Shown: in pieces, positions 10,479-39,481 of the stretch | Layout of the letters: the number at the start of each line of letters is the position of its first letter | Position numbering within the stretch: position 1 is the stretch's first letter | DNA from: Peptococcaceae bacterium | Lineage (GTDB): Bacteria > Bacillota > Peptococcia > DRI-13 > PHAD01 | Reading direction: 5' to 3' | Length of the DNA stretch: 64,000 bases | NCBI GenBank assembly: GCA_024655825.1 | Contig: JANLFJ010000002.1 | Coordinates: forward strand, 1-64,000 | Made by a program: the position numbers and the translations under genes | The notes under the pieces: model-generated | What the model was told of the DNA's origin: nothing | The model's database searches: none | Seen by the model: only the letters and a program-made list of their open reading frames with translations

Positions 10479-10703
10479 AAAAATATGCATATCAAATCGT
10501 TAAGAAGGAGGCGATAACGCGCGTTCTAAAACAATACCTTAATCCAAAAGATCAGCAAGTCAAAAGAATCCCGAGCCAAAAGGCCTGTGACTTATCGTTA
10601 TGGCCCTTGGCCTGTAGGGTACAGCGGGAAACTGCTGCGCCTCCCATTGCGGAAAGGGATGAGCAGGTCCAAAATTAAGAAAGATTTCAAGGAGGCGATT
10701 CGA

Positions 10704-24343: not shown

Positions 24344-24610
24344 AAAAAATTTAAACCCGTCCCTGAAAAGGGACGGGAAATAAACCCGCGGTTCCACCCT
24401 TGTTGAAAGACCTGTATTAAGGTCTTCCCGCTTTTTTATCCCGTTAACGCCGGAAATACGTTTTTCCTTACTGTTTTCAGGAAAAAAGCTCCCAGGCGGT
24501 CTCACCGCAGCCTTCCCGGAGATGCTTCCAGCCAGGGCATCACCTCTCTGGATGGAGACACTGCGGCAGTTGTCCCGGTCACAGCTCATGCAGGCTAACA
24601 CTCACTTTTT
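24344..24610 (-). ncRNA. T-box leader of thrS (Thr specifier ACC)
   Basis: On the minus strand the T-box sequence GGGTGGAACCGCGG lies at 24399-24386. It is followed by the terminator hairpin CCCGTCCC/GGGACGGG at 24377-24356 and a U-rich tract. Stem I carries an AGAGAGGTGATG segment like the AG bulge region. The specifier ACC is at 24500-24498 in GAGACCGCCTGGGAGC. This predicts induction when tRNA-Thr is uncharged. Confidence 0.92.
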
Positions 24611-27169: not shown

Positions 27170-30100
27170 TCATTCTTCCAATTTCTTTAAGTTCTTTTTC
27201 AGTATGCGGATGGCCCTTTCCGGATCAAGCCTGCCGTAAAGACCACCAACTGTCGAAACAAGGTAAGAGGCATCCAGGAGAACCTGGCCGTTGGGTCGCA
27301 GCACCGTGTATTCGTCATCGGTAAAGAGGGCTCCCTCGGTGATCAGCTTAAGGTCTTCCAGGTTATAGGCCAGTCCCTCTTTGCATTTATGGTATATGGT
27401 CCCGCCGATGAGCAGCAGGTTTGTCTTATTCGTATAAAAGTTGACCCCGTACTGCAGGAAATAGGTGTCCGTTTCCTTGACGTAACCCACATTGTTGCGG
27501 GTGGCTACAGCCATTATTTCTCTCGCCAGGCAGGAGCGAACGGCTGTCTCTTCCCTGGTCTCCGGCAAGTGGTGAGGATTGGCGTGAATCCACTTGAGGT
27601 ACGGTTCCAGGACAAGCGTAAGGCCTTCTTCCGCCATCTTGAAGAAGCTTCCGAAGTGGTCTTTGCCCGGTTTAAACCCGGGAAACTTGGCCCGGAAAAA
27701 GGCGGCCAGTTCTTTTTCCATCTTGCCGCTCTTGAATTTTTCTAGTTCCAGGAGATTTTCGGCGTTGTAGCTAAGACCATATTTCCCTTCCACACGGCGG
27801 TAAGCCAGCGGCGCATTAGGCGTTTTCAAAATGGTCCTCTTGACTTTTCTTTTCGGGTCGTCATAGGGGAAAACATAAAGCGGGTTTTCCCTGACGTTGG
27901 CGAAAAAGTCGGTGGTGCAGCCGCCGATATCAAGAGCCACGATGTTGCCAAGCCCTTCTTCGCTGCCGTAACCCTTGGCCAGGAGATTGATACCCAGGAA
28001 GGCTGCTCTTGGCGTGGGCAAGAATTTGGCGCTCATGTATTCTTCGACCACGTCAAAGCCCTTGCCCCTGATGATTATCGTCTGGAACAACTCCCGGATT
28101 ACCTCGTTGACCGCTTCGATATTGAACCTGTTTACTTCGGGCATCACGTTGTCGGTAATGCGGATATCGACGCTTTTGGCGGTAAAGATTTCCCTTACCC
28201 TGCCGGCTGCGTCCTTGTTGCCGGCATATATCACGGGAACGCCGTACTTTGCGTAGACAGCCAGCCTGGAGCCTTCAGCCAGCATCCTGGCGTTATGAAG
28301 CTGGGTTTCCGTATCTCCACCGTCGTCCACACCGCCGGCAATCAGTATGATTTCGGGCTGGTCAACTTCGTAAATGGTCCGTACATCTTCCTCTGTCAAT
28401 TTCCCTTCATAAGAATTCAAGAGCTTTGCTCCCGCCGTAAGAGCAGCCAGGTCGGCGGCAAACCCGCTCTCTTCTTTGCACAGAGCCACCGTGACCATTT
28501 TCAGCCCGCCTTTGGCGCTGCTGCAGGGAAGCTTGACCTCAAACCTGTCCATGGCTTTTTTCAAAGGTTCCCAGCTTCCCTGGGCCTCGCACTCCGCCAG
28601 GCAGCCGAGCCCGTTGGCCAGTCCAATCCGGATGTCATTGGGCGTGGTGGGCACGTATTTCAAGTCAACCTCCTCGGAAGAAGTGTTAAACACGGCTATT
28701 TTGGTATAAGTGCTCCCAAAGTCCACGGCCAGTACCCACTTGTCTTCCAAATCCTTAATTCCCAGCTCTTCCCTGAATTTTGCCACCGTGTCGCTTTCGA
28801 TCTTTTCTTCCAGTTCCGTTATGTAAGACTCATCATTGGCCATGGAAACATCCTTGAAGAAATACCAGGGAAATCTCTGCCTCACCAGGTCCACCCGGTG
28901 AATCTCGTCTTTGACCTTGATCCCGTCAAATTCGTCGATCTTGCAGGCGCCGTTTACTATCTTGGTGCGGCACTTCCCGGTCAGTTCGTAGCGCTTATCG
29001 ACAACTGTTATCTGTGGAGCCTGGAAGAGGCCGATCTGAAGAGCAAGGTCAAGGTTATCGGCGCTGATCAGGGCGCATGTTTTTGTCGGGTAGTTTTCCT
29101 CATCAATGAGATCCAGGAGCAGGGAAGCATAATTCTTATCCTGGTCATGCCCCCGTTCTCCCGCTTCTTCTTCGCTCACCGCATATAGTTCATAATTATC
29201 CAGATTTACCTTTCCTTCGTAGCCTGCCATCATAGCCAGGTGCAGCATGTTGTACATGACGCCCTTTTTCAGTTCCCTCTTTCTTTCGACAACCCGGGGG
29301 TCATTCCAGACATCGGGCTGTGCGCCCTTGTAAAAATCCTTGAACACCTGTTTGACAATATCGGCGCTTTCGATAATATCCTTGGCCCTCGCTTCATGGT
29401 GGGCCTCCGGGTAGCTGACCACGTGCACAATGTCCGGTTCCATATACATCTGCCAGTAGGTGGAGACGGCAAGGTGTCCCTTAGCCATATCCAGGTTCGG
29501 CGGGAAGCTGGACAAACCGCCCCTTGTTTCCCTGATAATGTTGTAATCAAAATACCTGGTCAGCGGCTCAATAAGCTCATAAGCCGCCTTCATTTTCGCC
29601 AGGTCGCACAAGGGAGCAATTTCCGGCGGCAGGTCGAACATCAACTGCATCACATAGTTTTTTATCCCGCACTTTAACGCTACAACACCGGCAATGACAT
29701 GGTCGGTCACGTACATGTCGTCGGAACAATTGCGCAATTGCCATTGATGGGGATCGTTGATTTCCAGGGGTTTATTAATTGAAGCCCACCAGCGCATGAC
29801 CTCGAAGTGTTCATCGATGCCTTCCCTGATGGGCAGCGGTCCTCGACCGTCCAGCTGGTTGTAAAAAAAGATAGGCACAGCTGGAAAAGGCATATTGAAG
29901 GCCTCTTCAAAGTATTTGGCCAGCTCGAGAAGTTCGTCGGTACCTGAATAAATGCGGGTCATGGGGAAATTCCCGCACTTGGTGGCTTCTTTTAAAGCCT
30001 TCAAGTCTTCTTTTGTCCTGATGGGTGCCCCGCCCTGGCCCCGTAAATACTTGTCCGGCTTTTCTTCTCCCCGGATAAACTTGGCCAAAAATGCCTGCGA

Positions 30101-30823
30101 CGGCTGGTCCGGCGCCAGGGAGACGATTTCAATAGCCTCAGCCTCGCAGACTTTTTTAATGTCTTCGAGGGTCGGTTCCAGGCTTTCCGAAGCGATACCG
30201 ATATGGGCCCTGATGATGGGACGGTTTTCCAGCTCGCGGACCTGTTTAATCCTTGGAAGCAGGTCGTCTGACCACTCAATTTTTCTGGCAGCGGCTCCTG
30301 TTTTCTTTTCGGCAAATTCTTCCAGTTCTTCCATGGTAACAAAATCATCAACGATCATTTCAAAAAAGTTTTTAAACTCAGCCCGTTTCTCGTATTCCCT
30401 GGCAATAGCCTCCAGGTCGTAATTGCGTTCCTCTTCCGAGGAGAATTTGTCAGGCAGCACCGGAACGCCGGTCATAGCCCGCACCAGGTTGGCCGCCGGC
30501 CTCAACCCCCCAAAGGTATAGCGAATCCCGCTCTCCTTCGAATGAAGTCCGTGTTTGATGGCTTTTTCCATGAATTCCCTGATCATTTTATCAAGGTGAA
30601 GGTCTCCCAGCCTGAATGATACACCCACCACTTCGGGGCGCGACTCCCTGATCTTGTTAATCAGGTCGTCGATCTGCACTGCAGGTCCCAGCTTGACCGC
30701 GACATAACCCACCCCTTTGTCCTCCATCCACTCCGCAAAAGTTTCCACGCCGAGGGAATGAACGCAATCGCCGATCGAACCGGCTAACACCCTCCTTTTT
30801 TTCACATTCTTCTGCTCTTTCAA
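27170..30823 (-). CDS. Fused B12-dependent mutase: B12-binding domain + barrel + GlmL/MutL-type reactivase
   Basis: A 1217-residue protein with a TTG start eight bases after GGGGTG. Residues about 10-145 form a cobalamin-binding Rossmann domain with D19-C-V-H22-S-L-G25 (a D-x2-H-x2-G variant of D-x-H-x2-G) and a GG turn in YTFGG. Residues about 180-600 look like a mutase TIM-barrel (PMTRIYSGTDELLELAKYFEEAF, INDPHQWQLRNCSDDMYVTDH). Residues about 690-1217 are an ASKHA ATPase of the GlmL/MutL type: phosphate-1 loop VLAVDFGSTYTKIAVFN and second loop VALDIGGCTTDFF near 960. GlmL-type proteins accompany glutamate mutase and are thought to maintain the coenzyme. Catalytic part and chaperone fused in one chain is unusual. 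It follows the opine-dehydrogenase-like gene by 37 bases. The substrate is unknown. Confidence 0.8.
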   Translation of the reverse strand: MKEQKNVKKRRVLAGSIGDCVHSLGVETFAEWMEDKGVGYVAVKLGPAVQIDDLINKIRESRPEVVGVSFRLGDLHLDKMIREFMEKAIKHGLHSKESGIRYTFGGLRPAANLVRAMTGVPVLPDKFSSEEERNYDLEAIAREYEKRAEFKNFFEMIVDDFVTMEELEEFAEKKTGAAARKIEWSDDLLPRIKQVRELENRPIIRAHIGIASESLEPTLEDIKKVCEAEAIEIVSLAPDQPSQAFLAKFIRGEEKPDKYLRGQGGAPIRTKEDLKALKEATKCGNFPMTRIYSGTDELLELAKYFEEAFNMPFPAVPIFFYNQLDGRGPLPIREGIDEHFEVMRWWASINKPLEINDPHQWQLRNCSDDMYVTDHVIAGVVALKCGIKNYVMQLMFDLPPEIAPLCDLAKMKAAYELIEPLTRYFDYNIIRETRGGLSSFPPNLDMAKGHLAVSTYWQMYMEPDIVHVVSYPEAHHEARAKDIIESADIVKQVFKDFYKGAQPDVWNDPRVVERKRELKKGVMYNMLHLAMMAGYEGKVNLDNYELYAVSEEEAGERGHDQDKNYASLLLDLIDEENYPTKTCALISADNLDLALQIGLFQAPQITVVDKRYELTGKCRTKIVNGACKIDEFDGIKVKDEIHRVDLVRQRFPWYFFKDVSMANDESYITELEEKIESDTVAKFREELGIKDLEDKWVLAVDFGSTYTKIAVFNTSSEEVDLKYVPTTPNDIRIGLANGLGCLAECEAQGSWEPLKKAMDRFEVKLPCSSAKGGLKMVTVALCKEESGFAADLAALTAGAKLLNSYEGKLTEEDVRTIYEVDQPEIILIAGGVDDGGDTETQLHNARMLAEGSRLAVYAKYGVPVIYAGNKDAAGRVREIFTAKSVDIRITDNVMPEVNRFNIEAVNEVIRELFQTIIIRGKGFDVVEEYMSAKFLPTPRAAFLGINLLAKGYGSEEGLGNIVALDIGGCTTDFFANVRENPLYVFPYDDPKRKVKRTILKTPNAPLAYRRVEGKYGLSYNAENLLELEKFKSGKMEKELAAFFRAKFPGFKPGKDHFGSFFKMAEEGLTLVLEPYLKWIHANPHHLPETREETAVRSCLAREIMAVATRNNVGYVKETDTYFLQYGVNFYTNKTNLLLIGGTIYHKCKEGLAYNLEDLKLITEGALFTDDEYTVLRPNGQVLLDASYLVSTVGGLYGRLDPERAIRILKKNLKKLEE

Positions 30824-30860: not shown

Positions 30861-32042
30861 TCAAAATACTATCCTGCATAAACTGTCCATGTTCACAATT
30901 CCGTAATTCTGAGGTATCGGGGTTTCTCCCAGGTCCTTGCCCTCCAGCTTACCGCCTGCCAAGTACTCTTTCCCCATCCACCTGCCGGCAGCGGTAATAA
31001 CTTCATCCATCATCGGAGTAGCCACACCTGCCAGTTCGGCCAGGCCCCGGCTTACAACAAGCCCATAAGGGACATCCTCCGTCAGGTAGCGGCTGGAGAA
31101 ATCCGGCACATACCCCTCATTCCCCCGTTTTCTAACCGGAGCTTTTAATCCCCGGTAACCCTTATTGGTATTAAAGCACTTCATTAAAGTTGAACTGTCT
31201 TCTATTGACCCTCTGTAAGAATTGATTATCCATTCCCGGATTCCGGTGACACCTGTCAGATCAAACCCTCCATCTTTTTCCAGAACGGCTTTAATCTCCA
31301 ATATCTCAAAACTGAGCCTTTCCAGTATGCCGCACATTTCTTCCGTTACGCCCTGGTAAAAGAGGGGGATTCTGTTTTCAGGGAAAGGCTGCCCGTCCCA
31401 TTGGCGAAATAACCCGTACATTATCCCGGGATGGATTACCTGGCCCATATTGGCCAGGGAAACTGCCAGCATGTTCGGCATAGGCAGCACCGGAAGGCCA
31501 AGCAAATCCTGGAGAGCGTCGCAGAGAACAGCTGCTTGATTTGCCGGCAAGGACGCCGCCGCGACCTGGTTTTTCGTCCCCAGTATCTCCACCTGCTTGC
31601 CGTATTCTTTAATTCGGCAAGCCCAGGGAAGCGTCTGCAACCCGAAAATAGTGACGCCGGGCGGCGCCAGGCTGCAGGCCAAAAACTCAAAACCGCTGCG
31701 CGAAGGAATTGCTCCCACTATGGTACCCGGTGACAGGTGCTCGCTCATCCTGGCAAACAACTGCTTGTGGGTAAAAGCCGGAAGCACAAACACGACCGCC
31801 TCGCTTCCCGGAATAACCTTTTGGGGGTCACTGTCGATACGAGCAGGCAGGCCCAAGGAAACCTGTCCTTCCGCGCTTACCGCCTTAATACCTCCCTGCT
31901 GTGCCGTACCCTGCCTGATAAGCTCCGCCTCTTCCGGGAGCGGGGCCCATATCCTTACCTCCAGCCCCCTTGCGGATGCCAGAGCCGCCAGGGCATGCGC
32001 GCCGTTACCTCCTCCAACCACAGTAAGCGAACGAATTTTCAT
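30861..32042 (-). CDS. Opine (octopine/nopaline) dehydrogenase-like NAD(P)-dependent enzyme
   Basis: The start ATG at 32042 is preceded by GAGGAGG. The 393-residue protein has a Rossmann N-domain (VVGGGNGAHALAALASARG at about 6-24), AVVFVLPAFTHKQLF, and the C-terminal opine-dehydrogenase domain with NMGQVIHPGIMYG containing the His-Pro of the active site. Members form or cleave a secondary amine between an amino acid and a keto acid. It directly precedes the B12 mutase fusion in one transcript and has its own leader hairpin with U run. Together they suggest breakdown or rearrangement of an amino-acid-like or opine-like compound; this is inference. Confidence 0.75.
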   Translation of the reverse strand: MKIRSLTVVGGGNGAHALAALASARGLEVRIWAPLPEEAELIRQGTAQQGGIKAVSAEGQVSLGLPARIDSDPQKVIPGSEAVVFVLPAFTHKQLFARMSEHLSPGTIVGAIPSRSGFEFLACSLAPPGVTIFGLQTLPWACRIKEYGKQVEILGTKNQVAAASLPANQAAVLCDALQDLLGLPVLPMPNMLAVSLANMGQVIHPGIMYGLFRQWDGQPFPENRIPLFYQGVTEEMCGILERLSFEILEIKAVLEKDGGFDLTGVTGIREWIINSYRGSIEDSSTLMKCFNTNKGYRGLKAPVRKRGNEGYVPDFSSRYLTEDVPYGLVVSRGLAELAGVATPMMDEVITAAGRWMGKEYLAGGKLEGKDLGETPIPQNYGIVNMDSLCRIVF

Positions 32043-32080
32043 AAGACCTCCTCGTCTTAAGTCGAACAAAAACTAAAATA

Positions 32081-32163
32081 AAAAGAAAAGACAGCCAGAA
32101 CTTAAGGAATTCCCTCTCTTCTGGACTGTCGGCCAAGTCGTTGCCCAGTCAGCAGCCTCTATA
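32081..32163 (-). promoter_or_regulatory. Structured leader B with terminator (copy of leader A at 35058)
   Basis: On the minus strand GACAGTCCAGAA (32130-32119) pairs with TTCTGGCTGTC (32100-32090), with one bulge, and is followed by TTTTCTTTTTATTTT, an intrinsic terminator before the opine-dehydrogenase gene. Just upstream, GACTGGGC (32150-32143) can pair with GCCGACAGTC, which includes the terminator's 5' arm, so a competing antiterminator is possible. About 31 of 41 aligned bases upstream of the loop match leader A. It begins at the stop codon of the Com-like gene. Confidence 0.65.
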
Positions 32164-32350
32164 TTCTTATGAGATTGATCATTTTACAGTCCCGGTTATG
32201 GCATTTGATTTCAATGTACCGCGCAGGTTTTAACACTGGCTTGTCAGGAACGGTACCCACCAACTTAAACAGTAACTTGCCGCAGTTGCCGCAGGTAACA
32301 CGCACGTGGTCACTTTTTCCTCCGGGGGCAACCTGGTATGCTGCCTCCAT
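32159..32350 (-). CDS. Com-like zinc-finger protein (phage Mu Com family)
   Basis: A 63-residue protein with two Cys pairs: VTCGNCGKLLFK and YIEIKCHNRDCKMIN. The C-x2-C-x-KLLFK and IEI(K/R)C arrangement is that of Com from phage Mu and Mu-like prophages, a zinc-binding RNA regulator that opens a hairpin in the mom mRNA so it can be translated. Here there is no phage around it: the gene sits at the head of the opine-dehydrogenase/mutase unit and its stop codon overlaps a structured leader RNA. Regulation of that RNA is a plausible role. The N-terminal 16 residues may or may not be translated. Confidence 0.7.
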   Translation of the reverse strand: MEAAYQVAPGGKSDHVRVTCGNCGKLLFKLVGTVPDKPVLKPARYIEIKCHNRDCKMINLIRI

Positions 32351-32390
32351 ACCTTACCACCCCTTAGCATTAAAGTATTATACAATGTAT

Positions 32391-32430
32391 TGTTAATATG
32401 GTAATAATGTGTTAATACCGGTTGTTACCA
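32391..32430. promoter_or_regulatory. TGTTA-type repeats upstream of the Com-like gene
   Basis: TGTTAATATG at 32391, TGTTAATACC at 32410 and TGTTACCA at 32423 lie in the promoter region of the Com/opine-dehydrogenase/mutase unit. Similar 10-base repeats occur at 35138 and 38446, so a shared regulator, probably the GntR-type protein at 38714, may bind here. Confidence 0.45.
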
Positions 32431-32487
32431 CTTAATATATTTATTCAACGTCTTTTTAAAAAATCCTCCTGGAAAACAGTAACCATG

Positions 32488-32525
32488 CAAAAAAATAGCC
32501 CGGGAAAAAGCCGGGCTGTTTTTTT
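32488..32525 (-). terminator. Intrinsic terminator after the TRAP-like permease operon
   Basis: AGCCCGG at 32497-32503 pairs with CCGGGCT at 32511-32517, with A/T runs on both sides. On the minus strand it ends the operon that includes 32547-35002. Confidence 0.85.
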
Positions 32526-32546
32526 ATAACGCTTAAAACAATTCTT

Positions 32547-32840
32547 TTAGGCCGAAACGGAATTAACTTCCCCCGTCTCTTCCTCCTCATTTTGATCAAT
32601 TGTCAAGTGGTGTTCTTTCATCATATAAAAGTCGATTAAGCCGAACAGGATGGCATAACAGGCTAATTTTTTACTGAAATTCATTACCTGCATGTTAAAG
32701 TTGGAAATCACGGCCGCCGCAGTTCCATCAACAATAAAGGCGGCAAGGAATAAAACCGCAACCATAGCTCCGGCCAGGACGGCCACGGCTACCGCGACGG
32801 CATAGACAGTCACTAAAAAGGCGTGGATTTGCTGTTTCAT
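32547..32840 (-). CDS. Small membrane protein next to a TRAP-like permease
   Basis: A 97-residue protein with two or three hydrophobic segments (FLVTVYAVAVAVAVLAGAMVAVLFLAAFIV and LACYAILFGLIDFYMM) and an acidic tail (DQNEEEETGE). AAGGAGG precedes the start, and it lies 18 bases after the permease gene. TRAP systems normally have a small membrane subunit (DctQ), but this protein is shorter than the usual 160 or so residues and I do not recognise the DctQ pattern. It may be a non-standard small subunit of the adjacent transporter. Confidence 0.6.
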   Translation of the reverse strand: MKQQIHAFLVTVYAVAVAVAVLAGAMVAVLFLAAFIVDGTAAAVISNFNMQVMNFSKKLACYAILFGLIDFYMMKEHHLTIDQNEEEETGEVNSVSA

Positions 32841-32858
32841 ATCCGGATACCTCCTTCC

Positions 32859-34235
32859 TTAATGCACGAACAGAGGTAAAATGCCGAGCAGCAGGATCAC
32901 GCTCATCACAGCATGTCCCGCTATCCAGACATACCCTAATTTGGCCGTTTCCTTAAATCCCGATTTGGCAATGCCCATGGCCGCATACATGCACAAGGCC
33001 ATCGGCGGTGTCATCCCCTCCATGCATCCGGTAATTGCCGGCATTACCGCCGCTACGACGAAGGGGTCAAGACCTACCGCGGCTCCCGTCGAAATGATGG
33101 CACCGCCTAGAATGGCAACCTGGGCCGAACCGGGCATAACCATTCCCAAAAACGCTGTAAAAATTACAACCAGCAGAGCCCAACCAAAAGGCCCCAGTCC
33201 GAAGCTCAAAAACCACTGCTTGACAGCCTGCTCCATGGCGATTTCCTTAAATACCACGGAAATGGCATAAGCGAAATAGATGGTTGCCGATACCGGCACA
33301 ACGCCTTTTAAGGTGTTTTTGAAAAGAATCATCAAGCTGGAATAGTTTAATCCACCCTCAATGTTTTTTCGGCCTATGTAAAGGGCATAAATGCAGGCCA
33401 CGCCAGCCACAAACATCAACAGCGTACCGGAAAAAACCTTTTGCCCGGCTTCTCCCAGGCGAGAAACAACAAACGGCTTCATCGTAGAGTCCATAAGCAA
33501 GGGCAGCAGTATCAGAACGGGTATCAACAGGGAAGTCCAACCCTCTTTTAAAGACTGCCCAAAGGAAGGCCTTTCCGCCTTAGGAATTGGATCTACATGG
33601 TAGTATTTAGCAAAACCGTACAGGAAGATGGCTCTCTGTATGACGAGCCATGCCCCGACCACCCAGAGGGCCAGCCAGAAGGTTGAAAGCTCGTATTTGT
33701 TGGGATACAGTGCAGCCAGAATCCCGAAACCGACCAGGTTAAGACCGGGACCCATCTGGTTGCCCAGGGTGCTGCAGGACATTTCTGTCGTTGCCGCCAG
33801 GGCCCTGGGAAATCCCGTTTTAATCATAGCAGGGATCGTGAAAACCCCGGTGGCTGCCACGTTTCCAGGCCCCGTCCCCGACATCATGGCCATGGCGCTG
33901 CTTCCCAGCAGCGAAACATAGCCCGCGCCGCCGGGGAGCCCGCCGAACACGGCGACAATAAGGTTAATAAGCTTCTCAACTACCCTGGTCTGGTTGAGAA
34001 TATGGGCCAGCACCAGGAAGGTGACGATGATGTAAAACAGGGAACTGGTTGTAGGATAAATCAGGTACTTCCAGAACAAATCATAGCGCTGCGTCATGAT
34101 AATCGTGAAAGGAAAGCCTAAAGCTATTGCTTCGTAAATAGGCCGTTTAAATACTATAAAAACAAGCATGATAAACAACAGGAGTTCAACGAGGTAGAAA
34201 ATTTCCAGTGGTATCCCGCCAATAGTAATATTCAT
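32859..34235 (-). CDS. TRAP-type large permease (DctM-like) family protein
   Basis: A 458-residue membrane protein with about 12 hydrophobic segments. The signature stretch SAMAMMSGTGPGNVAATGVFTIPAMIKTGFPRALAATTE and the repeated VMPAITGCMEGMTPPMALCMYAA match the two pseudo-symmetric hairpin regions of TRAP large subunits. TRAP carriers import organic acids with sodium and a binding protein. No binding-protein gene is seen in this operon, so the partner is elsewhere or absent. The start overlaps the stop of the upstream hydrolase by four bases. Confidence 0.75.
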   Translation of the reverse strand: MNITIGGIPLEIFYLVELLLFIMLVFIVFKRPIYEAIALGFPFTIIMTQRYDLFWKYLIYPTTSSLFYIIVTFLVLAHILNQTRVVEKLINLIVAVFGGLPGGAGYVSLLGSSAMAMMSGTGPGNVAATGVFTIPAMIKTGFPRALAATTEMSCSTLGNQMGPGLNLVGFGILAALYPNKYELSTFWLALWVVGAWLVIQRAIFLYGFAKYYHVDPIPKAERPSFGQSLKEGWTSLLIPVLILLPLLMDSTMKPFVVSRLGEAGQKVFSGTLLMFVAGVACIYALYIGRKNIEGGLNYSSLMILFKNTLKGVVPVSATIYFAYAISVVFKEIAMEQAVKQWFLSFGLGPFGWALLVVIFTAFLGMVMPGSAQVAILGGAIISTGAAVGLDPFVVAAVMPAITGCMEGMTPPMALCMYAAMGIAKSGFKETAKLGYVWIAGHAVMSVILLLGILPLFVH

Positions 34236-35002
34236 TTTTCCATCTCCTTTCTTTTTCTTGCTTGCGCGGCACGGAGCTTGAATGCCTGAAATAGTTTATT
34301 CCAGGTTTCGTCCTTCTTTACCAGGATTTCCGGGTGAAATTGGGTCAAGAGAACAAAACTGTTCACCTCGCTTTCTATGGCCTCAATTACCTGATCCCGG
34401 GAACGGCCGACCGCCCTGAATCCTTGTCCCAATTCCTTGACAGCCTGACTGTGCCAGCTGTTAACGCGGAGTTCTGTTTTCCCAAATATCCTGGCAAGGT
34501 GACTTTCCTTTTCAACGGTAAGGTCATGATAAGGTTCCTCAAGCCCTATGCCCAATTTAACCTGGTTATGTTCCAGGGAACCGGGGATGTTTTCTGAAAT
34601 CTTCAAGTAAAGGCTGCCTCCCATTACTTCATTCATCATCTGCATTCCCCGACACATCCCTAAAACAGGCAGGTCCAGTTCTAACACTTTTTCGAAAAGC
34701 CTTTTTTCAAAACGGTACCTGTCGGGGGCCGTTTCCGACAATCCCGGTATTTCTTTTTGGTTTAAAATACGGGCGGGAATCCTTCCTCCACCGGTGCAAA
34801 GCAAACCGTCTATCTCCTGCAACAACCGGGTAATGTATTCTTCGTTCTCGTTCACGGGTATCAAAAAAGGCAGCATTCCGTTATTTATTAAAATGTCTGA
34901 ATATGTCCGGTCAATGTAGTGCAGGGCTCTTCCCGGAAAAATGTCTTCCTCGCCTCCGGTATCGGCATGGCATGTGACTCCTATCAACGGCATTTCCTTC
35001 AC
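34232..35002 (-). CDS. Class-I glutamine amidotransferase-like hydrolase (peptidase C26, gamma-glutamyl-GABA hydrolase type)
   Basis: A 256-residue protein starting at GTG with AAGGGG upstream. The catalytic Cys is in VLGMCRGMQMMNEVMGG and the His/Glu of the triad in LTQFHPEI; LLCTGGGRIPARI is the oxyanion-strand segment. The layout matches PuuD-type hydrolases that free an amine or amino acid from a gamma-glutamyl conjugate. Being co-transcribed with a permease, it may process an imported gamma-glutamyl compound. Leader A precedes it. Confidence 0.8.
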   Translation of the reverse strand: MKEMPLIGVTCHADTGGEEDIFPGRALHYIDRTYSDILINNGMLPFLIPVNENEEYITRLLQEIDGLLCTGGGRIPARILNQKEIPGLSETAPDRYRFEKRLFEKVLELDLPVLGMCRGMQMMNEVMGGSLYLKISENIPGSLEHNQVKLGIGLEEPYHDLTVEKESHLARIFGKTELRVNSWHSQAVKELGQGFRAVGRSRDQVIEAIESEVNSFVLLTQFHPEILVKKDETWNKLFQAFKLRAAQARKRKEMEK

Positions 35003-35057
35003 CGGATTTATACCCCTTTCTTGATAAAATAACCGGCAAATGCTGAATGTAAAGGTA

Positions 35058-35131
35058 CAAAAAAGACAGCCCAGAATATGGTGCTTATTCCGGACTGTCT
35101 GCGGAATCGTGCTCCATCGGCAGTCTCATGA
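35058..35131 (-). promoter_or_regulatory. Structured leader A with terminator (copy of leader B at 32081)
   Basis: On the minus strand GACAGTCCGGAATA (35099-35086) pairs with TATTCTGGGCTGTC (35078-35065), with two mismatches, and six U follow at 35064-35059. Upstream, AGACTGC (from 35126) can pair with GCAGACAGTC, sharing the terminator's 5' arm. The conserved upstream part (GAGnCTGCnGA..TGG.GCA.CGA) also occurs in leader B. It precedes the hydrolase/permease operon, with its U run ending 57 bases before the GTG. Confidence 0.65.
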
Positions 35132-35137
35132 TGTAAA

Positions 35138-35157
35138 TGGTATTACATGTTATTACA
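35138..35157. promoter_or_regulatory. Tandem TGnTATTACA repeats
   Basis: TGGTATTACA at 35138-35147 is followed at once by TGTTATTACA at 35148-35157. They lie just upstream of leader A, where a promoter or operator for the hydrolase/permease operon is expected, and resemble the repeats at 38446 and 32391. Confidence 0.45.
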
Positions 35158-35236
35158 AAGTAAAACTTCTACGTGAATGCTAAAATTCCTCCTGTAATTT
35201 AAAATATTTTTAATTTAAAATAAGACTTCCTCAGTT

Positions 35237-38445: not shown

Positions 38446-38475
38446 TGTTATATCATGTTATATCTTGTTATGTTA
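38446..38475. promoter_or_regulatory. Three tandem 10-bp TGTTATATCA-type repeats
   Basis: TGTTATATCA, TGTTATATCT and TGTTATGTTA follow each other without gaps, in phase with one DNA helix turn. They lie just upstream of the symporter start and within the symporter/GntR divergent region. They are a good candidate operator for the GntR-type regulator. Confidence 0.55.
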
Positions 38476-38713: not shown

Positions 38714-39481
38714 GTGTTAAAACTGGAACACGAACTGCAAAACAATTCGCTTCCTCTCTACCTGCAATTGAAAAATATCATTTCGGGCCAAATAAAAGAC
38801 GGTGTGCTCAAGCCTGGAGAAAAACTGCCCTCAGAAAGAGAACTCTGTGAAAGATACGGGGTCAGCCGCATAACTGTGCGGCAGGCCTTGAACGAATTAA
38901 GCAATGAGGGTTTGATTGACCGTTCCCACGGCAAGGGCACATTTGTCTCCCGGACGAAGGTGGAACAGGACCTCTACTCCATAACTCCCTTCCAGCACTT
39001 TATCCTCAGCAAAGGGATGAAGCCGCGAACCATGTACATAGAAGGCAAAGTGATACCCAACTCCTATCATCTCAGCAAAATACTGAATGTTCCGCTTTCG
39101 GAAAACCTGGTGGAAATGGCCCTCCTGGGGCTGGGCGATGATATGCCCATGTCCTTTTATACCAGTTTTTTCAGCTACGAACTCGGCATCAAGATGCAAG
39201 AACTGGCCCAGAGAGCCGCAAGCGAAAACCGTTCTTTCACAACATTTGACCTGTACAAAGAAATACCCCAGATCACTCTGGGGGTAATAAACCAGACTTT
39301 TGAGGCCTCGATTGCCGATGCGTACATTTCCAACATCTTAAAAATTAAAAAGGGAAATCCCATTCTCATTGCCGAATCCATAATCTATTCCCACGATGAC
39401 CGTCCCCTGGAGTATAAAACTACTATCTACCGGGGAGACAAGTACAAATTCTCCCTGATTCGCAAGCCCGGCAGCGAATAG
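38714..39481 (+). CDS. GntR family transcriptional regulator (HutC/UTRA type)
   Basis: About 250 residues. The winged helix (LPLYLQLKNIISGQIKDGVLKPGEKLPSERELCERYGVSRITVRQALNELSNEGLIDRSHGKGTFV) is a textbook GntR domain, and the rest is a UTRA effector domain (GMKPRTMYIEGKV, SFTTFDLYKEIP, EYKTTIYRGDKYKF). The start is unclear: AAGGAGG (38707-38713) touches the GTG at 38714, while a CTG at 38723 has ideal spacing. It is divergent from the symporter operon, where tandem 10-bp repeats lie, so it probably represses the 27-38 kb catabolic units until an inducer appears. Confidence 0.88.
   Translation: MLKLEHELQNNSLPLYLQLKNIISGQIKDGVLKPGEKLPSERELCERYGVSRITVRQALNELSNEGLIDRSHGKGTFVSRTKVEQDLYSITPFQHFILSKGMKPRTMYIEGKVIPNSYHLSKILNVPLSENLVEMALLGLGDDMPMSFYTSFFSYELGIKMQELAQRAASENRSFTTFDLYKEIPQITLGVINQTFEASIADAYISNILKIKKGNPILIAESIIYSHDDRPLEYKTTIYRGDKYKFSLIRKPGSE

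Follow-up and report, generated by a model that had tools for sequence, protein, structure and literature searches.

The stretch analysed here, hereafter the window, comprises 64,000 nt of Peptococcaceae bacterium contig JANLFJ010000002.1 (GCA_024655825.1, positions 1–64,000 of the forward strand), and our subject is a pair of minus-strand leaders in it, A (32159–32080) and B (35127–35059), which have a 36–37 nt element in common. Leader A is flanked by a 63-aa open reading frame (ORF) and an opine dehydrogenase gene, leader B by genes for a DUF4387 protein and a peptidase C26. Structural modelling suggests that the two are most likely genuine copies of one unclassified transcription attenuator, of a known general kind. 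The genes downstream are those that a preliminary description of this DNA had named: Octopine_DH and B12-binding/MutL after leader A, Peptidase C26 and the DctM permease after leader B. The leaders and their surroundings contain the following features.

32162–32350, minus strand: 63-aa Com-like Cys4 zinc-ribbon ORF, sharing a transcript with element A and with its stop codon 2 nt ahead of that element
32123–32159, minus strand: element A, predicted antiterminator hairpin (5' GGCUG 32157–32153, 3' CAGUC 32128–32124, inner stem, loop CAACGA; minimum free energy (MFE) fold of the isolated element)
32090–32130, minus strand: terminator A hairpin, 41 nt, −19.5 kcal/mol, its 5' arm shared with element A through GACAGUCC
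32080–32089, minus strand: T-rich run 3' of terminator A (TTTTCTTTTT), from the sequence
30861–32042, minus strand: opine dehydrogenase family gene, the first long gene 3' of leader A (Pfam Octopine_DH, 3.8e-36)
27170–30823, minus strand: B12-binding/mutase/MutL (GlmL family) fusion, the second gene 3' of leader A (Pfam MutL, 4.4e-87; TIGR01319 above cut-off)
35092–35127, minus strand: element B, predicted antiterminator hairpin (GACUG 35125–35121 with CAGUC 35097–35093, inner stem, loop CACGA; MFE fold of the isolated element)
35065–35099, minus strand: terminator B hairpin, 35 nt, −19.6 kcal/mol, its 5' arm shared with element B through GACAGUCC
35059–35064, minus strand: T run 3' of terminator B (TTTTTT), from the sequence
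34232–35002, minus strand: Peptidase C26 (gamma-glutamyl hydrolase-like) gene, the first 3' of leader B (Pfam, 7.1e-53)
32859–34235, minus strand: DctM-type permease gene, the second 3' of leader B (Pfam, 3.4e-45)

Firstly, we compared the two leaders. Aligned over 37 columns, the elements differ by one gap and agree at 27 of 36 bases, and the related upstream part reported for the two minus-strand segments is present where it had been placed. The two are each other's best non-self match in the window (local score 24 in the scan and 26 for the full pair; unrelated segments reach at most about 20). The terminator arms are near-identical between the copies (GACAGUCCRGAA ... UUCUGG(G)CUGUC), each hairpin is followed by its T run, as described before, and the last eight bases of the element, GACAGUCC, double as the 5' arm of the strong terminator.

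Secondly, we examined the structure of the element. Folded alone, each copy gives the same MFE hairpin in the same alignment columns: GRCUG pairs with CAGUC in the outer stem, the middle is bulged, and an inner stem of 5 bp carries the loop C(A)ACGA. The GACTG/CAGTC antiterminator pairing proposed earlier for both leaders thus holds for B; in A, GACTG occupies a non-homologous position (32150–32146), and the homologous strand is GGCUG (32157–32153), which pairs with CAGUC through one G-U and is the MFE choice in both copies. All nine substitutions between A and B fall in paired columns of A's own fold (24 of 37 columns are paired; chance 0.014). They alter eight pairs, seven of which are still canonical, one of them through a double change (U-G to G-C), and 11 of the 12 pairs of the A-derived structure remain canonical in B. 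In simulations that mutated A at random, matching the observed changes in number and type, 2e-5 of trials reached 11 of 12 canonical pairs while altering eight pairs or more; with all changes forced into paired columns, 0.015 of trials reached 11 of 12. An alignment-based fold yields a variant in which 12 of 12 pairs are kept, including one double change; shifting its partners by 1–3 columns lowers the kept pairs to 23–46%, and its unpaired columns are conserved except for two bulge positions and the one-base gap. These statistics describe one pair of paralogous copies in a single genome, and the substitution pattern between the two copies supports a functional antiterminator hairpin.

Thirdly, we considered how hairpin and terminator relate. 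CAGUC belongs both to the antiterminator hairpin and to the 5' arm of the terminator; the two structures therefore cannot coexist, as expected of mutually exclusive folds in an attenuator. In folds of the growing chain, a local structure appears early, either the hairpin itself (−9 and −10 kcal/mol) or one much like it, and the terminator takes over once its 3' arm has been made; the full-length leaders fold at −26.8 (A) and −24.1 kcal/mol (B). The terminator is far stronger than the hairpin, so that read-through would require a factor that holds the hairpin.

We then asked where the elements stand in their transcripts. In other genomes, the promoters of orthologous opine-dehydrogenase operons carry a palindrome close to GTAATAACNNGTTATTAC (13–15 of 16 positions in L022, L025, L033 and L059, by reading and scan); this GntR-type operator consensus, taken from those promoters, was scored over 22–64 kb of the window. 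The five best sites include two for the operon behind element A, one for that behind element B and one upstream of an SSF/AtuA operon (12/16). The sites and the related features are:

32401–32418, minus strand: GntR-type operator of the element-A operon, 14/16 (consensus scan)
32411–32428, minus strand: second, overlapping GntR-type operator of the element-A operon, 12/16 (consensus scan)
32377–32404, minus strand: promoter-like site TTACCA-16-TATAAT of the element-A operon (promoter scan)
35139–35156, minus strand: GntR-type operator (GTAATAACATGTAATACC) upstream of element B, 13/16 to GTAATAACNNGTTATTAC, second in rank in 22–64 kb, about 12 nt from the element
35137–35164, minus strand: possible leader B promoter TTTACT-16-TACCAT, 8/12, predicted start about 35130, below the promoter-scan threshold and proposed from reading of the sequence
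38714–39481, plus strand: GntR/UTRA regulator gene (Pfam GntR 4.2e-23, UTRA 2e-20), putative reader of the operators

With operators upstream of both, the two elements would be expected to form part of regulated 5' leaders, and a start near 35130 would put element B at the extreme 5' end of its RNA. The GntR/UTRA gene probably encodes the protein that reads these operators. The palindrome occurs before three operons (32401–32428, 35139–35156 and 38447–38464), which probably make up a small regulon of that gene. The same palindrome is found at orthologous opine-dehydrogenase promoters of several other Bacillota metagenome-assembled genomes and of L033, which is labelled Desulfovibrio.

The genes themselves point to a common function. 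The fusion at 27170–30823 is a single chain of 1217 aa with a B12-binding domain, a mutase-like middle and a MutL/GlmL reactivase, and its orthologs lie mostly beside an opine dehydrogenase (44 loci with an orthologous mutase, in Bacillota, Chloroflexota, Atribacterota and others). Elsewhere, the opine dehydrogenase usually precedes the mutase, and C26 directly precedes both in L021 and L025. From the clustering of C26, opine dehydrogenase and mutase orthologs in other genomes, operons A and B probably serve one pathway; this opine-dehydrogenase/B12-mutase pathway is uncharacterised and appears to be catabolic. A second, distant opine dehydrogenase paralog lies on the same contig outside the window (G000:C2:74094–75098, minus strand), directly after a permease-like gene.

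We searched for further copies with a sequence-only model (R1), a structured model (R2) and a pattern search; the genome-wide runs passed through the search tool's first-look filter, and the E-values of copies A and B against R1 and R2 are given by construction. No convincing third copy was found in the organism's own genome by any of the three; a third R2 match at 15.1 bits was judged on reading to be due to chance. The covariance-model search across related genomes that the preliminary description had proposed returned no further copies among 396 relatives (R1 and R2). There were likewise none in 21 genomes with the mutase (R1) and nothing convincing at the 44 orthologous loci (R1 and R2). 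The weak matches that were read (L017–L020, L071–L076) fall within apparent coding sequence or have no terminator after them, and are attributed to chance. The possibility that the segments are scattered mobile repeats is not borne out: there are only two copies, and both stand before functionally linked genes only.

On this evidence, we hold it rather probable that the segments are two copies of one transcription attenuator, with read-through by way of a factor-stabilised antiterminator hairpin. Several observations weigh against this. The hairpin of copy A is as stable as its shuffles (z 0.11), and its inner stem depends on three G-U pairs. Two copies in one genome make covariation untestable on a tree and leave the shuffle control powerless, with two rows. 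The interval from terminator B to the C26 gene holds a promoter-like site, TTTACA-16-TATTTT (35053–35026). Finally, a terminator adjoining the gene is absent in 32 upstream regions from 29 orthologous loci, several of which have operators; these operons without a leader terminator show that the pathway can do without the attenuator in other genomes, and the attenuators look like a lineage-specific layer beneath an older GntR control.

The last two observations also suit an explanation that we regard as unlikely, in which the hairpins are ordinary intrinsic terminators that end the upstream units (the DUF4387 operon and the Com-like ORF), the downstream genes have promoters of their own and the common part is a relic of local duplication, with which the 3-kb distance between the copies is compatible. 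However, the GntR-type operator some 12 nt upstream of element B implies that a regulated start should precede the terminator, fewer than 50 nt without a promoter-like site separate the terminator A hairpin from the start of the opine dehydrogenase gene, and the substitutions track an antiterminator pairing that a terminator does not need.

A distinctly less probable alternative is a small metabolite-binding riboswitch, in which the 36-nt hairpin would be the aptamer and its ligand would stabilise the antiterminator and so switch a catabolic pathway on. The copies share most unpaired residues and differ in the stems, and one type of element stands ahead of two operons of an apparent single pathway, as such a switch might. 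The element is nevertheless very small, its tertiary anatomy is not evident, and its confinement to one genome is unusual for an aptamer class. Neither leader matched any Rfam 15 family at the gathering score, and a permissive threshold of E = 10 gave no hit to either element, in keeping with the earlier statement that no known riboswitch class was recognised; readings as PyrR, T-box or riboswitch elements were given up for want of an Rfam score. Elsewhere in the window, Rfam places a T-box leader before thrS (24366–24591, minus strand; RF00230, 108.6 bits) and a molybdenum/tungsten cofactor riboswitch (10557–10675, plus strand; RF01055, 63.1 bits).

We compared the elements with RNAs controlled by proteins. 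Antiterminators of the BglG/SacY/LicT type (RAT) are short imperfect hairpins with conserved bulge and loop bases that overlap the 5' arm of a terminator and precede catabolic genes. Elements A and B resemble them as lone short hairpins over the 5' arm of a much stabler terminator, with a factor needed; the genome differs in having no detected CAT_RBD protein (PF03123) in a search that recovers the domain in 4 of 14 control genomes, and we know of no obvious resemblance of the elements to the RAT consensus. The antiterminator RNA of ANTAR proteins consists of two tandem stem-loops with hexanucleotide loops in which positions 1 and 4 are A and G, respectively (PMC3369931). The overlap of antiterminator and terminator 5' arm is shared with the EutV/NasR/AmiR systems, but here there is a single hairpin with a CACGA or CAACGA loop in place of two with A1/G4 hexaloops. 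The ANTAR anatomy was rejected on these grounds, the MFE and consensus folds giving one hairpin with a 5–6 nt loop C(A)ACGA; the one dual-hairpin alternative considered has 7- and 8-nt loops, a 1–2 nt linker and almost no pair changes. The genome encodes one ANTAR protein (L014, 76.3 bits, G000:C22), unlinked to the attenuator locus. A survey of premature terminators catalogued by synteny described many 5' terminators, some with antiterminator potential and no known sensor, and some common to non-homologous genes (PMC2965389); unlike those, the elements here are not conserved across species.

A candidate for the factor lies within the locus. The Com-like ORF encodes a Cys4 zinc ribbon (CGNCGKLLFK...IEIKCHNRDCKMIN) that aligns at 51% identity with a protein on viral contig L066, was not found in the other 59 relatives searched and matches profiles weakly (phage Com E 0.43, a translational-regulator family E 0.027). 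Com of phage Mu is an RNA-hairpin-binding regulator that acts on translation, with the loop motif CC(N)2-3GAG (PMC6483171). The present arrangement recalls Com/mom in that a Cys4 zinc-ribbon protein of about the same size has its gene immediately before a hairpin RNA, within one transcript; it differs in that Com controls translation, the ORF shows weak homology to Com, and a reading of elements A and B found its motif in neither. Binding of the protein to both hairpins, which would make it a phage-type translational regulator turned dedicated antiterminator with its own gene in one target operon, is a long shot, and we offer the ORF as a lead rather than a finding.

A 14-codon ATG...TAA frame (MRLPMEHDSADSPE; 35129–35085, minus strand) spans element B and enters the terminator, and part of it (D-x-A-D-S-P-E) can be read in element A too. 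Least probable of all, and very improbable, is that translation sets the switch, with a ribosome at the UAG of the Com-like ORF covering GGCUG and favouring the terminator in A and this tiny leader ORF acting likewise in B: a stop codon 2 nt ahead of element A and a frame spanning element B would fit, but the B ORF would be leaderless, with no ribosome site in evidence, there is no regulatory codon run, the reading frames of A and B are not kept across the one-base gap, and on inspection the changes show no compelling third-position bias. A reading of the frame as a conserved peptide (three synonymous differences in one frame) was likewise judged not compelling.

Under the factor-stabilised attenuator that we favour, RNA polymerase would start at the GntR-controlled promoter and transcribe the 36–37 nt element first, and the nascent element would form an imperfect hairpin that sequesters the CAGUC required by the 5' arm of the terminator. 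Without the factor, the terminator (about −20 kcal/mol) would oust the hairpin (about −10 kcal/mol) and transcription would end. Stabilisation of the hairpin by a factor acting in trans, most likely an RNA-binding protein that recognises the conserved unpaired bases, would let transcription run on into the genes for opine dehydrogenase and B12 mutase in A, and into those for the C26 hydrolase and the permease in B. The preliminary description had proposed a ligand- or protein-controlled attenuator; its leaders and terminators stand, with an exclusive hairpin, pair-preserving changes and predicted GntR-regulated 5' leaders added, while we infer that read-through is regulated, that the controlling factor is probably an RNA-binding protein, and which protein it may be.

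If confirmed, the pair would tie two operons to a single uncharacterised opine-dehydrogenase/B12-mutase pathway. It would be an operon-pair-specific attenuator outside Rfam, added in one lineage under a GntR switch that others use alone, and so a small, testable case of new RNA regulation being recruited; it could also lead to an RNA-binding regulator of anaerobic clostridia that is as yet uncharacterised.

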